DNA of 64,000 bases from Planctomycetota bacterium (lineage in GTDB: Bacteria; Planctomycetota; Planctomycetia; Gemmatales; Gemmataceae). The position numbers and the translations under genes are program-made. This document shows, piece after piece, positions 5,016 through 32,170 of this stretch (position 1 is the first letter of the stretch; every line of letters starts with the position of its first letter). The notes under the pieces are model-generated. The model did not search any database. It was not told the DNA's origin and saw only the letters and a program-made list of their open reading frames with translations. The DNA is taken from the NCBI GenBank assembly GCA_016191165.1, contig JACPPF010000018.1, forward strand, positions 62,001-126,000. The letters run 5' to 3'.

Positions 5016-5393
5016 TTATTTGCTTGTCGCATGTTTTTTCGTTGGGCTCGCTCTTCCCGCGACGATCGATCGGAGACGCTTTTTCCAATAGGCCGGATCA
5101 ACTCGAATTTCATCCAGGAACCGACAGGCCATTTCATTGGGCGAATTCCGCCCGCTTTCCCAGGCCTGAACCGTCTTGGTGGAAACGCCGAGGAACCTTG
5201 CGAAGATCGCCTGGCTGGCGCCCAAAATTGCCCTCGTCTCCCTTACAGCTTTCGGCTTGAAATCGGTGTGGTCGAGGTTCAGGACAACGCGCCTACGGGT
5301 AAATCGCTCATCAAAGCCACCCTTCTTATCAAGTGCGTCGGCCAGTTCGCTTAAACCTTCGATAATGCTCTCACCAAATGTTTGTTTTTGCAT
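5016..5393 (-). CDS. HigA-type XRE antitoxin
   Basis: A 125-aa helix-turn-helix protein. The region ASQAIFARFLGVSTKTVQAW is a typical XRE/Cro HTH, followed by ESGRNSPNEMACRFLDEI. In this family the protein neutralises the toxin and represses its own operon. I use the ATG at 5393; an upstream in-frame start at 5423 adds ten residues without family support. It follows the toxin gene by 49 bases, giving the toxin-first order typical of higBA. Confidence 0.82.
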   Translation of the reverse strand: MQKQTFGESIIEGLSELADALDKKGGFDERFTRRRVVLNLDHTDFKPKAVRETRAILGASQAIFARFLGVSTKTVQAWESGRNSPNEMACRFLDEIRVDPAYWKKRLRSIVAGRASPTKKHATSK

Positions 5394-5442
5394 TGTAAAC
5401 TCCGGTCGTGCGCCACACACCACGGCTTTTCATTTTCCATTG

Positions 5443-5838
5443 TCAAGGCATGGTTTTTTTCGCCAAGTCCCCATTAATCTTCAGGATGAGTTTTCTGATG
5501 GCATCCTTTTCGGATTCATCCAGGTCATCTCTTTCATTCTTGGCATACGCCCGCAGCAAATAGATCACCGAGAATTCCTCGAAATAGACGTAACAGATTC
5601 TGGCGCCGCCGCTTTTGCCGGTCTTCCAGGACGCTGGTGCGAAACGTAGCTTACGAAGCCCTCCGGTGCCCTCGACGACCCGGCCGGCCTGGGGGTCGGA
5701 AATCATGGCGAGTTGCAGGGTCACCAGGGCTTCGTCGTCAAGGCGAAGGGTCTGCCAATCGCTTGGTGAATCGATTCCATTCGATGAAATCCAAGAGACG
5801 AACTCCACACTGGCCAGACGTACTTCCGTGGCCTCCAT
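5443..5838 (-). CDS. HigB/RelE-type toxin
   Basis: A 131-aa protein of the RelE/ParE superfamily, HigB-like (phage-derived Gp49-like type). The segments GLRKLRFAPAS, KSGGARICYVYF and IYLLRAYAKNERDDL match the central beta-sheet and the C-terminal helix leading to DAIRKLI. Members are usually ribosome-dependent mRNA endonucleases. It is transcribed ahead of the antitoxin at 5016-5393. The pair is inserted between the DUF1549/DUF1553 gene and the DUF1501 gene. Confidence 0.8.
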   Translation of the reverse strand: MEATEVRLASVEFVSWISSNGIDSPSDWQTLRLDDEALVTLQLAMISDPQAGRVVEGTGGLRKLRFAPASWKTGKSGGARICYVYFEEFSVIYLLRAYAKNERDDLDESEKDAIRKLILKINGDLAKKTMP

Positions 5839-8194: not shown

Positions 8195-9391
8195 GCAAAA
8201 GTGTCTCAAGGGGTAGGACAGCGTGCAGTGAATCTTAGACGATTCTCGCGGGTGAAGCAATGAAAGAATGCGAGGCGCCGGCTTTTTCGATCGCGGGGTC
8301 GATTTCGACATTTCTCGCCGGCGAACTTCATCGTCTTGTGTACAACATGTCGGTGGCTCATCGGCGAAAAAGTTTTTCTTGAATTTTGTTGCATTTATGA
8401 AATTGATTGCTTATTATTTCTTCAAATTCATGCGCAACTCCCCCAGGCCGGAACAGACGATGACCAAGAACTCGAATGGCCACCCTTCAGGCACTTCGTC
8501 GAACTTGAGGCACAGCGAGCGAGGTTTGTTGGGATACCGTAACGACGAATTGAAACTGGTCGATCCGCAGGGCCTACGCATTAAAACTTGCCAGGGTTCC
8601 GAAAAAATTCGGAATCGGCTGGCGCTGTTCAGTTGAAAACCAAGACGCCGGGCGCGTAAAATGCGGGCCCTCGAAAAGTGGCCGAAAAATGCCAGTCCTC
8701 CGTTGCTCTGCTCTGCTTACTCTATAAGAAAATTCTCGCACAGGAGCCAGGACATCCCGTCTTGCCTCGCTTGAACCTCGGACGTTGCTTTCTTGGGGTG
8801 CCGCATTTTACGCTTGGCTCGTTCTGTCGAACAAGTGAACGGCGAGGCGTTTACCGATAATTCTCGTCAAGGCCGGGAAACCTTAATGCGTAGGCCCTGG
8901 CTGGCGACTGAAGTGGCCTGTTTCGTTGGCTTGCGTCGGCCCGCATTTTATTTGCCGATTTGACGACGGAAGAGTTACTCATAATATCGAGGCCACTAGA
9001 ACCGGCGAGCACGGATTCCATTCCCATCCGGATGAATATTATTTACGTCAATATCGTTTACCGACCAAAGCTGTCACGTGTGGGTCCGATCTGCGAGCAT
9101 TGTCTCCAAGGGAAATGCTCGGAACGTTCTTCGGCCTTCGCGCACGCCATTTCGAGGATACTGGCCAACCGGAATGTTCTGAGCCGGATTATCTCTTGGC
9201 CCGGTTTCTCTTTCCTCGAAACCGGCATCTGCAGTTCGCGCAACTAATGGTAAGTATTCAAGGAGGCATGGATCTGTTTGAGCCGGATGAGGCTGGCCAC
9301 CCAATCGAGATGGCAACATGGTTGAACCAAGTCGTTCGAATGGAACCGTGGAAACGGCAACCGAAGCGAAACCATACGCTGGAGTCCGCAA
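8195..9391. other. 1.2-kb region without a convincing gene
   Basis: This stretch is more AT-rich than its flanks, especially near 8300-8430. Open frames exist on both strands (for example 8926-9447 forward and 9074-9466 reverse), but neither shows a recognisable domain or a good ribosome binding site, and they overlap on opposite strands. It contains the inverted-repeat pair at 8568/8883 and lies directly upstream of an orphan Rhs tip, so it may be decayed sequence left by loss of the rest of an Rhs gene or a mobile element. Confidence 0.5.
8568..8899. mobile_element. 332-bp segment bounded by 17-bp perfect inverted repeats
   Basis: cagggcctacgcattaa at 8568-8584 is repeated exactly in inverse orientation at 8883-8899. 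A second nested pair, gcgtaaaatgcgg at 8654-8666 and its inverse at 8801-8813, lies inside. The interior has no convincing transposase frame. The flanks (tcgatccg on the left, gctggcga on the right) are not direct repeats. Outer ends beginning CAGGG are also seen in ISAs1-family elements, but that link is only suggestive. It could be a decayed or non-autonomous element. Confidence 0.45.
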
Positions 9392-10042
9392 ATGCTGACG
9401 AGAAAAATGGGGCGTACACATACAACGAATCCGGACGCGAGGGATAGAAAAGCGAATCCTCGTCACGGCGGTATGCCGCTCGGATTTGAGGCGGGTGACG
9501 CCAATTTGTATCGATACGTTACCAACAACCCTGCGAATGACGCCGACCCTTCGGGTTTAGTGGGCGGCACGCGGCATCACGCGTATCCACTTTTCGTGGG
9601 TGGTTCTAATAATCAGCCGGCGTTCGTCCTTGAGTCGGTGGATGCGCACAACCGGGCTCACAATTTTCTTGCGCGAAATGGGATCGCTGTGCAAAACCCA
9701 CAGCGTGCCAGGGCAGTCTGGCTGGCACTTAGTGAAGCGCGAAGGCGTGAGTTAATTATTGGGTCGCTTCGGGCCGCGGGTGTTCCGGACAACCTGATCA
9801 GGTCTCATATTGACGCGGTCATGGCAGGCGCGAGGCCAGGGTTTGCGGTCAGAAGAATCGCAGGTTACCCTGGCGGTTTGATTCGGGTGGTTGCTGCTAC
9901 CGCGCGGCCAGGTTTGCGAATTGGGGGAATGGCGCTCCGAGCAGCCAGCGGCGTGTTACGCAACCCGTGGTTTATTGCAATATCAGAAATGGCGATATTT
10001 CCGCCCGCGCTCGCAGGAGGGGTACGCCTGTCCTATGAATAA
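9392..10042 (+). CDS. Orphan Rhs-repeat C-terminal toxin tip
   Basis: A 216-aa frame. Residues about 29-56 contain PLGFEAGDANLYRYV followed by NNPANDADPSGL, the conserved end of the Rhs core, after which Rhs proteins switch to a variable toxin domain. The remaining roughly 160 residues begin HHAYPLFVGG and continue with DAHNRAHNFL, a His-rich pattern like HNH-type nuclease tips; the nuclease assignment is a guess. The thousands of bases of Rhs repeats and export domain expected upstream are missing, and the start ATG lies in unrelated sequence. It is thus a displaced 3' end, possibly silent. Confidence 0.7.
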   Translation: MLTRKMGRTHTTNPDARDRKANPRHGGMPLGFEAGDANLYRYVTNNPANDADPSGLVGGTRHHAYPLFVGGSNNQPAFVLESVDAHNRAHNFLARNGIAVQNPQRARAVWLALSEARRRELIIGSLRAAGVPDNLIRSHIDAVMAGARPGFAVRRIAGYPGGLIRVVAATARPGLRIGGMALRAASGVLRNPWFIAISEMAIFPPALAGGVRLSYE

Positions 10043-10066
10043 CTCGAATTTCCACCTGGCGGCTCT

Positions 10067-10423
10067 GTGTATTATTTCTTGCCTCGCGGCACATTTATTA
10101 CGCCACGTGGACAAATCTATATCCCACTTCCGGAATCTGAATTCGGGCAGTCCGACTTCCAGCCACCGCCCGGTTCACTCGTAGTAGTTCGAAGTGATTC
10201 CGTGAGGGGGAGTTTAGTAAGGCCTGGCGCCACTTACCCTCCCGACTCTGTTCGCCCTGTTTCGCCGCTGGCGCTGTTAATTCCTATCGGGATGACTGAG
10301 GAGACAGCCAGGCTCGAATACAGCCGATATTTGCAGGGGGCAACCGGCAACTCAGCCGGCCAAACACCGAATTTCATGGATTGGTTGAGGCGAACATATC
10401 CAAATCCGGAACGACCGCGCTAG
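10067..10423 (+). CDS. Small hypothetical protein behind the Rhs tip
   Basis: A 118-aa frame from a GTG, 24 bases after the Rhs-tip stop, with no recognised family. The start reads MYYFLPRGTFITPRG and the end NFMDWLRRTYPNPERPR. The sequence is proline-rich and uses unremarkable codons. It may be a separate small gene, or the former C-terminus of the preceding toxin joined by a frameshift. The gene downstream is the better candidate for immunity. Confidence 0.4.
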   Translation: MYYFLPRGTFITPRGQIYIPLPESEFGQSDFQPPPGSLVVVRSDSVRGSLVRPGATYPPDSVRPVSPLALLIPIGMTEETARLEYSRYLQGATGNSAGQTPNFMDWLRRTYPNPERPR

Positions 10424-10485
10424 GAAGGAACGAAGGGCACGAGGATCGTGGAAATTCGTTCGGATATTTGGAGATTGGAGGTCGT

Positions 10486-11145
10486 ATGAACACATCCATA
10501 GGAATGCTTGCGCACCTGCCGGCTGAACTTCATTACCTCATCGATCCCGCAATGAAATATGGGATCTACCAAACCGATGACGACCAACTTGATTTTCTTG
10601 AGAACGCGAGCGATGAAGAAAGGGATGAGCTAGCCCGATTGGCTGAACGTTACCGTCTCAACGGGCACGCAGATTTTGTTTCAGATTTCTTTGACGATTG
10701 TCCGATTACTGACTATCCCGAATCCGCAAGGCTCTACTGGCTTTTCGGACTTATTGATCACTTGGGACTTCCGCTGTCTCCCGAGAATTGGGACACCGTT
10801 GAAAACCATATTGGCACACTGCGTAGATTTGGTTCATTTCGTCGAGCGTCGGAGCGAGCGGTGGCTGCGAAGTTTCTGGCAAACTTCGGCGAAAAGGCGC
10901 GATCAGCAATTCCAACTCTTCATCAGGCACTGCAAGACGAAGATTTGCGCGTCCGGGTCTGGACGCATTATGCCTTGGCACTTATCGAGGGTGATTCGGC
11001 GGGCCACGAAGACGCAGTGCGCCTAATCTATGCTGAACACAATGCTAAGGACGACTTAGGTTGCCATATAGACGACGTGGGTGCGGAGGCAAGTGAAGCA
11101 CTCGAAAAATTCCGCGAATCGGCTCCGAAATTGGGTAGCCATTGA
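10486..11145 (+). CDS. HEAT-like repeat protein, candidate Rhs immunity protein
   Basis: A 219-aa, acidic, predicted cytoplasmic protein. ATG 10486 is preceded by ggagattggaggtcgt, a good ribosome binding site, so I reject the longer frame from 10381. Residues about 120-165 (AVAAKFLANFGEKARSAIPT, then LHQALQDEDLRVRVWTHYAL) have the alternating helix pattern of HEAT repeats. Small acidic proteins directly downstream of Rhs tips are commonly the cognate immunity proteins; that role is inferred from position only. Confidence 0.6.
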   Translation: MNTSIGMLAHLPAELHYLIDPAMKYGIYQTDDDQLDFLENASDEERDELARLAERYRLNGHADFVSDFFDDCPITDYPESARLYWLFGLIDHLGLPLSPENWDTVENHIGTLRRFGSFRRASERAVAAKFLANFGEKARSAIPTLHQALQDEDLRVRVWTHYALALIEGDSAGHEDAVRLIYAEHNAKDDLGCHIDDVGAEASEALEKFRESAPKLGSH

Positions 11146-15273: not shown

Positions 15274-15455
15274 GAGGGCGCCCTCCGGGAGACTCTTCCA
15301 GGGGTCATTGTGCCATGATCTGGACGGAAACGCAACGTGGTTGTGGGAATTGGGAGGGCTTGGCCGATCCCGGGGGTTCGCTTCGCTCACCCTCGGGCCT
15401 CAAGAATCACATGAAACCACTCACCATTTGCCGCTCATTCCACTACACTACCACC

Positions 15456-15541
15456 AATCGCTAGGGGTGCCCGCGCGCTGCCGCGGGCTGAGAGCAGACC
15501 CTGGGACCTGATCCGGATCATGCCGGCGTGGGAAAGCGATG
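15456..15541 (+). promoter_or_regulatory. TPP (THI-box) riboswitch
   Basis: The conserved TPP aptamer core is present in order: ctaggggtgcc, ggctgagag, accctgggacctgatccgg, atcatgccggcgtgggaaagcgat. P1 can pair atcgct (15457-15462) with agcgat (15535-15540). It lies 87 bases before a small membrane-protein gene and about 630 bases before thiC. Binding of thiamine pyrophosphate is expected to lower expression of the downstream operon. Confidence 0.95.
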
Positions 15542-15593
15542 CCACTCTTGAGACCGCGCATCGTTTCCTCCCTCTCTCATGTTGACCTCAACG

Positions 15594-31854: not shown

Positions 31855-31940
31855 TCCGTTCGGTAGCCTGGCAGTCCGCCTTTGATGAAGCGGATCCATG
31901 GCTTTGCGTCCCACCCTCACGGATGGTTTGCCGTTGTCGT
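31855..31940 (-). promoter_or_regulatory. Cyclic di-GMP-I (GEMM) riboswitch
   Basis: Read on the reverse strand, the segment contains the GEMM-I core: ggcaaaccatccgtgagggt, then gggacgcaaagcc, and at the 3' side gactgccaggctaccg. These match the conserved GGCAAACC, GGGACGCAAAGCC and GCUACCG blocks of the aptamer, with a GNRA-like gtga loop between the first two. It precedes the flp pilin in the same direction, so pilin expression should respond to c-di-GMP. An 8-bp stem (gctccgcg/cgcggagc, 31762-31784) lies between switch and gene. Confidence 0.9.
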
Positions 31941-32170
31941 GGATTCACGGTCACGGACGTTGCGCGGACACCCTTGAAAAAAGACCCAAGAAAAACGCGG
32001 GCGAACGATTCCTTTCGATGGAAGGCCCGGGCCCGAACACCCGTTCGCCGTGGCCTTCACTTCACGACAAACCTAGGTCGGATTTTAACGTCTGTCAAAT
32101 TGAAAGGGATTATTCCTGATATTCCGGCCGCACGACGAGGCGGTGCTCGCCTTGAGTCATAAAAATGAGT

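Follow-up and report, generated by a model that had tools for sequence, protein, structure and literature searches.

The tips of Rhs and CDI proteins are toxins that are blocked by the product of the next gene (PMC3150448), and CDI orphans, as that source describes them, mostly lack translation start signals. In polymorphic toxins, inactive transglutaminase-fold domains have been found fused before RHS arrays (Zhang et al, 2012; PMC3482391). As that study describes it, such a domain is part of the toxin protein itself, where it follows a signal peptide or transmembrane helix, has lost at least one of its Cys, His and Asp residues and is followed by the RHS array.

Here, we describe a locus at positions 8400-11145 of a 64,000-nucleotide window (the whole stretch of DNA that was analysed, G000:C122:62001-126000) from a planctomycete genome available as a 7.23-Mb draft (183 contigs, 95% complete). 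Like the toxins described in PMC3482391, it ties a transglutaminase fold to Rhs toxins with varied C-terminal domains; in contrast to the domain described there, the transglutaminase-like gene (TG) is a separate upstream gene, its family keeps the Cys-His-Glu/Asp residues and the Rhs array is absent. The locus also resembles orphan or standalone CT cassettes in having a short core end, a tip and an immunity gene with no large body (PMC3150448, PMC3482391). It differs from them by a constant upstream partner gene, by a start codon and SD sequence that are often present and in that this genome shows no main Rhs gene of matching core to which it is linked. On the immunity side, a HEAT repeat protein beside a polymorphic toxin recalls Imm-HEAT, which occurs in planctomycetes among others and is linked to Tox-REase-7 in the table of PMC3482391, whereas the gene found here has an extra N-terminal domain that is the part common to tip-adjacent genes. 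The tip carries a pattern, H..PL..GG...QP.........H...H, that resembles the HH...H...H listed for Tox-ColE7 (PMC3482391). A further parallel, with Tde5 and the HNH/EndoVII (bba-metal) toxin nucleases, is that a single family of nucleases can be countered by immunity proteins that are not related to one another (PMC13392607). Compared with colicin/pyocin-type and other HNH/EndoVII nucleases, the tip in the window gave no significant profile or PDB match, and compared with Transglut_core2 (PF13369), TG has an N-terminal part and a genomic setting of its own. At the sequence level, the locus is best described as a polymorphic toxin/immunity-like pair with a short Rhs core, in which the Rhs body is absent and a separate TG gene is added. 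In the open-access literature that was searched, no paper turned up in which short Rhs toxins are preceded by a TG gene.

We consider it probable that the locus is a decayed planctomycete cassette of TG, mini-Rhs toxin and immunity gene. Such a cassette would consist of TG, a mini-Rhs toxin gene with a variable domain directly downstream, and then the immunity gene.

Organization of the locus

The predicted gene order is a TG remnant, an interrupted mini-Rhs toxin gene and an intact, likely immunity gene. The features are:

8430-8615, + strand: possible N-terminal remnant of TG (weak), in another frame than the C-terminal part, found by tblastn
8887-9447, + strand: C-terminal half of TG, a pseudogene with its stop at 9445-9447, 49-63% identical to TGs and matched by the TG profile
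9392-10042, + strand: mini-Rhs toxin ORF of 216 aa, ending in TAA 10040-10042, with ATG 9392 or 9473 as start
9482-9559, + strand: Rhs core end (LGFEAGDANLYRYV...DPSGL), TIGR03696 at aa 31-56, E 1.2e-4
9563-9955, + strand: conserved tip module with the HNH/bba-metal-like pattern, without Pfam or NCBIfam match
10043-10423, + strand: toxin tail in the same frame, behind the TAA, 44% identical to the C-terminal part of the G026 tip
10486-11145, + strand: likely immunity gene, intact, 219 aa, with GGAGG 5 nt before the ATG
~10510-10770 and ~10852-11004, + strand: N-terminal family domain and HEAT part of the likely immunity gene

The third-position GC of 8400-11145 is low (0.49-0.55) relative to that of the flanking genes (0.69-0.81), which fits acquired DNA. 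Elsewhere in the window, an HTH protein (HTH_3, 1.0e-4) and a RelE-like protein (1.1e-4), both just below cut-offs, lie at 5016-5838 on the - strand and are a possible toxin-antitoxin pair; a TPP riboswitch (15453-15551, +) and a c-di-GMP-I-GGC riboswitch (31858-31941, -) score above the Rfam gathering thresholds.

The toxin gene and its interrupted frame

In the ORF at 9392-10042, the final ~26-28 residues of an Rhs core precede a His-containing tip. The core end is matched by TIGR03696 (profile positions 52-76 of 76) with 22.6 bits, under the curated cut-off of 32.5. A homologous tip is present in a relative, G026 (tblastn 2.1e-60; 57% identity over 190 aa), so the tip in the window is not a chance ORF; the original prediction of an Rhs core end with a toxin-like tip is borne out by both matches. 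Of the two possible start codons, ATG 9392 has a GGAG 7 nt upstream. The break at 'PLGF', in the window and in other tips, had been read as a truncation, a reading that was dropped on finding that the cores of five relatives (G075, G089, G090, G082:C232 and G115:C780) also begin there.

No match to the window tip was found in Pfam, NCBIfam or PADLOC, a profile search of the tip module against the PDB found no nuclease (best 0.21), and folding the G026 tip gave a model too poor to search with (pLDDT 39.7). In a six-row alignment, nine residues of the module are invariant (H6, P9, L10, G13, G14, Q18, P19, H29 and H33), and all of them precede the TAA at 10040-10042. The tip may be a nuclease of the HNH/bba-metal type, with a spacing in its pattern that we take to resemble that of colicin DNases.

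The frame at 10067-10423 had been listed as a small unknown frame. It is in frame with the tip and divided from it by the TAA, and G026:C382 encodes tip and tail as a single 329-aa ORF, with 57% identity before the stop site and 44% after it; compared with the C-terminal part of that one protein, the frame at 10067-10423 gives E 3e-32. A separate gene at this position was therefore ruled out. Differences between the window and G026 at codon positions 1/2/3 number 62/45/125 over 182 codons of the tip, 51/46/87 over 124 codons of the tail and 88/70/145 over 211 codons of the immunity gene. This third-position excess indicates that selection had acted on the tail as coding sequence, and on this comparison the stop accordingly looks recent; it may also be an assembly error.

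A transglutaminase-like gene upstream of short-core Rhs genes

Directly upstream of the toxin, at 8887-9447, lies a TG remnant that the original prediction had not noticed. The frame is similar to genes that immediately precede other Rhs tips with short cores, and the TG profile matches the window at G000:C122:70887-71234 (E 3.7e-14, positions 152-266 of 369). This C-terminal half is 49-63% identical over 119-149 aa to the TGs of G075, G089, G090, G082:C232 and G115:C780, relatives that represent a second TG type. These matches also ruled out that frame 8926-9447 is an unrelated gene. Further upstream, 8430-8615 matches the G075 TG at 29% over 73 aa (tblastn, E 7e-4 against a 1.4-kb subject) and the G082:C232 TG at 41% over 32 aa (E 0.02), a possible trace of the N-terminal part. 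The His and the Asn-Ile-Glu of the signature are present in the window; the Cys stretch is not recognisable in the remnant.

Intact TGs have the Cys-His-Asp/Glu signature and profile match of the transglutaminase-like superfamily. Transglut_core2 matches the G026 TG copy at 1.4e-7 and four of the six profile-seed TGs at E <= 0.01, and the TGs share the positions of the Cys, the His and the Asn-x-Glu. The Cys motif occurs in all 35 TGs that cover it (33 by pattern and two by eye; four fragments do not extend to it) and Asn-x-Glu/Asp in 34 (32 with Glu, two with Asp), with one further TG cut by a contig end. A search of the PDB with the TG profile returned TPR-like and chance matches and no transglutaminase.

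Among 95 genomes of the family, the TG profile found 33 places in 17 genomes. Together with G056 these make 34 places, and at 29 of them a core-end match follows within 300 bp on the same strand. Seven family places and G056 had been met through tips or the window and were excluded from an independent count; the remaining 26 comprise 21 with a short-core Rhs gene within 300 bp downstream, two without and three on contigs that end inside the TG gene (G026:C317, G023:C647 and G000:C46). The core-end HMM had been built from 14 sequences, some of them TG-linked tips, none of which is among the 21. The two places with no Rhs core end behind TG are G114:C785 (556 bp checked) and G000:C58 (3170 bp checked), the latter an intact TG of the source genome at 748-1866.

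The TG search was extended to the phylum, with up to five candidates scored per genome; matches were found in 81 of 392 genomes and 29 loci were examined. Beyond the family, short-core Rhs genes also follow the top full-profile TGs that were not seeds (G375, G461, G253 and G155) (TIGR03696 E <= 0.01), and at G190 the core match is only borderline (0.03). Twenty-three lower-scoring matches, confined to the catalytic region, had no Rhs neighbour in the 337-1500 bp behind the match, of which the truly downstream DNA is less, since the gene extends beyond the match.

The partner genes keep the last ~26-41 residues of the Rhs core before a variable toxin domain, hence mini-Rhs. From TG stop to toxin start the distance is mostly 8-33 nt, or the genes overlap, often with an SD-like stretch; on C122, where the TG gene likewise ends next to the toxin start, a search of the source genome gave no RHS_repeat match. 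Thirty-four tips were extracted, of which two had no recognised boundary and six had fewer than 60 aa behind it. BLAST sorted the other 26, which extend 60 aa or more past the core, into 24 clusters, the only pairs being the window with G026:C382 and G017 with G081. In comparison, all 561 pairs among the 34 TGs of at least 250 aa link, with a median identity of 36%.

A set of 27 mini-Rhs genes, which left out seven short or borderline tips, was compared with Pfam and TIGR03696. All 27 have TIGR03696 at E <= 0.01. WHH, Colicin-DNase, AHH, TGL and Dehydratase_hem each occur in one of the 27 tips, the first four being known toxin domains, and most tips, including that of the window, have no Pfam match, so that the case for a toxin function is one of architecture. 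In TG loci, many of the downstream genes either resemble no known immunity protein or could not be recognised. By eye, the mini-Rhs proteins of G190, G253 and G155 seem to start with a signal peptide, and the products of several downstream genes appear to be membrane-anchored, a hint that some members act outside the cytoplasm.

The likely immunity gene

The downstream gene (10486-11145) is likely an immunity gene. Its earlier description as HEAT-type holds: HEAT_2 matches at 1.8e-5 (25.4 bits, below the 27.7 cut-off), and when the product and three relatives were combined in a profile, it hit chains of designed HEAT proteins (alphaRep) with values as low as 2.9e-10. A fold model of the protein alone was too poor for use (pLDDT 53.2). 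Relatives of the product occur in G026 (8.2e-51) and G023 (5.7e-7), both adjoining a tip. Among the 95 family genomes, five hold the tip module, and a relative of this gene adjoins it at four of these loci (window, G026, G013 and G023); the proposed pairing of toxin tip and immunity gene is supported by this linkage. At G026:C382 (44834-46797), there are three tandem copies of the immunity gene, of which the first is intact while a frameshift breaks each of the other two.

The HEAT part is absent from the G013 and G023 versions, and the shared part is the N-terminal domain. An HMM of this domain built without G013 recognised the gene that follows the tip in G013 (1.1e-12) as well as a two-domain protein at the G304 locus (1.8e-8), and one built without the window and G026 recognised the window protein (7e-18), with E-values scaled to a nominal million sequences. 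At G029, the neighbour of the tip is instead a SUKH-1-like gene (PF09346 4e-4, below cut-off); at G304 and G192, LRR genes adjoin the tip, the one of G192 below cut-offs. The N-domain also occurs at nine more family loci with no Rhs core recognised nearby (a DPTGL string in a 128-aa frame was taken as chance), which indicates that the domain is not immunity-specific. In the locus described here, the N-domain/HEAT protein would bind and block the tip.

Distribution of the tip module

In 59 relatives, a search with the whole ORF gave clear homologues of the tip only in G026 (2.1e-60), G029 (6.7e-35), G013 (9.7e-27) and G023 (1.0e-9); the many other matches to the toxin ORF are Rhs core ends. A profile of the tip module (threshold E <= 1e-4, with no more than 43 candidates evaluated in each genome) detected it in five of 95 family genomes, namely these four and that of the window, and a coarser scan of 392 genomes of the phylum added G304, with two, and G192. 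Several copies lie on longer Rhs frames: 3608 codons in G192, 594 and 479 in G304 and 461 in G029. The module therefore moves between long and short formats. Searches for related tips in plasmids and viral contigs, and in genome contigs with the whole tip, gave nothing useful. At G304:C60, several Rhs ends have near-identical cores and differing tips, with LRR and other small genes between them, an arrangement that looks like a tip array.

Rhs ends elsewhere in the genome

Rhs genes occur elsewhere in the genome, as the original prediction requires, with 13 core ends, two of which lie in long frames of 4516 codons (C174c, on C174) and 1362 codons (C178a, on C178). Six of the 13 lack most of the core. 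Both long genes end in core types different from that of the window, and the longest exact match between the core end of the window and 11 fetched Rhs loci of the same genome is 11 bp, where shuffled sequence gives 9-15 bp (20 shuffles). A complete Rhs gene with a matching core was thus not found, an absence that in a draft of 183 contigs is provisional.

These results bear on the claim that the large Rhs body is missing. No long Rhs body lies upstream, as stated; a short core is nevertheless the normal form downstream of TG, so the locus reads less as a tip newly severed from a long Rhs gene than as a toxin gene whose core is short by nature. The further claim, that orphan tips serve as a reservoir for exchange by recombination, likewise holds in part. 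Exchange on an evolutionary scale is supported by the module on the long Rhs frames of G192, G304 and G029. For present homologous exchange, an 11-bp match at the level of shuffles and the other core types give no support, and with the toxin frame also interrupted, a recombination reservoir at this locus is not supported.

Two truncated tips of the source genome (G000:C144 and G000:C174, the latter C174b) have 427 bp in common upstream at 89% identity, including the 3' end of a tyrosine recombinase gene. Further upstream on C144 are genes for a DnaG-like primase and an IS91-type transposase (profile matches on C144: Phage_integrase 3.5e-37, DNAG_N 8.5e-9, Y2_Tnp 2.4e-52), and a mobile element may be carrying or cutting Rhs tips at these places. 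On G000:C177, two standalone tips lie in tandem with an ATG start ('MYDPTIGRW') and a GGAG SD. These M[YF]DP tips (C177a,b) have FabF or another tip upstream and no TG, and one of them carries Ntox50 (7.5e-10, above cut-off).

Discussion

The TG/mini-Rhs order, the constancy of TG and core end beside polymorphic tips and the state of the frames in the window are all read from sequence. How far they favour a decayed cassette depends on the alternatives. That the locus is a displaced Rhs tip, stored for recombination onto a full-length Rhs gene, seems quite unlikely to us. Both CDI and Rhs systems are well known to contain orphan CT/immunity pairs (PMC3150448), almost stripped core ends make up six of the 13 in this genome, and tips have moved between formats, as the longer frames in G192, G304 and G029 attest; yet the core end shares no more with the 11 other loci than shuffled sequence does, C174c and C178a end in different cores, and many genomes have such short cores behind TG, often with the SD and start codon that CDI orphans are described as mostly lacking (PMC3150448). 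The proximity of TG might itself be a hitchhiking or insertion-site effect, with TG belonging to a mobile segment that inserts into rhs cores and taking no part in toxin function. The mobile genes upstream of other truncated tips (the IS91-type transposase, integrase and primase of C144), the segment common to C144 and C174b and the three contigs that end inside TG would all suit such an element, to which we nevertheless give little credence: the spacing between TG stop and toxin start is that of a translation-coupled operon, the Cys-His-Glu/Asp signature is kept, the TGs are all related while the tips are not, and the same order is found outside the family.

A different question is whether the 216-aa short toxin is still made and active, the cassette working without TG. 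The invariant module residues before the stop, the GGAG upstream of ATG 9392 and a third-position excess that gives no strong sign of long decay would allow for this. Against them stand the loss of 127 conserved codons relative to the single 329-aa frame of the G026 homologue and the broken TG, and we think an active short toxin unlikely. The toxin side is probably inactive or crippled, even though the nuclease-like module precedes the stop; the likeliest present role of the locus would then be immunity against relatives that still carry the toxin. Read as a decayed cassette, the locus appears as one whose offensive half is decaying while its immunity gene is intact.

In intact cassettes, TG would cleave, release or transfer the toxin by acting on the Rhs core end, because this is the only constant part of its partners. 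We tentatively propose, as a possibility that we hold at rather less than even, that planctomycetes have shell-less Rhs toxins in which, in place of an Rhs cocoon that surrounds the toxin and cleaves itself, a core-end tag of ~26-41 residues is recognised by a dedicated and catalytically equipped TG partner that cleaves, attaches or hands over a broad range of interchangeable toxins, the window being a relic with only the immunity gene intact.

Should TG and mini-Rhs prove to be a functional pair, some Rhs-type toxins would do without the large shell, and the short core end would act as a signal for sorting or processing, which is directly testable with two small proteins. As a constant gene, TG could then serve as bait in the search for further polymorphic toxins of planctomycetes and their immunity genes, and some annotated 'orphan Rhs tips' may be complete genes of TG/mini-Rhs cassettes. 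The copy in the window would then exemplify the expected fate of such a cassette, in which partner and toxin decay and immunity stays.
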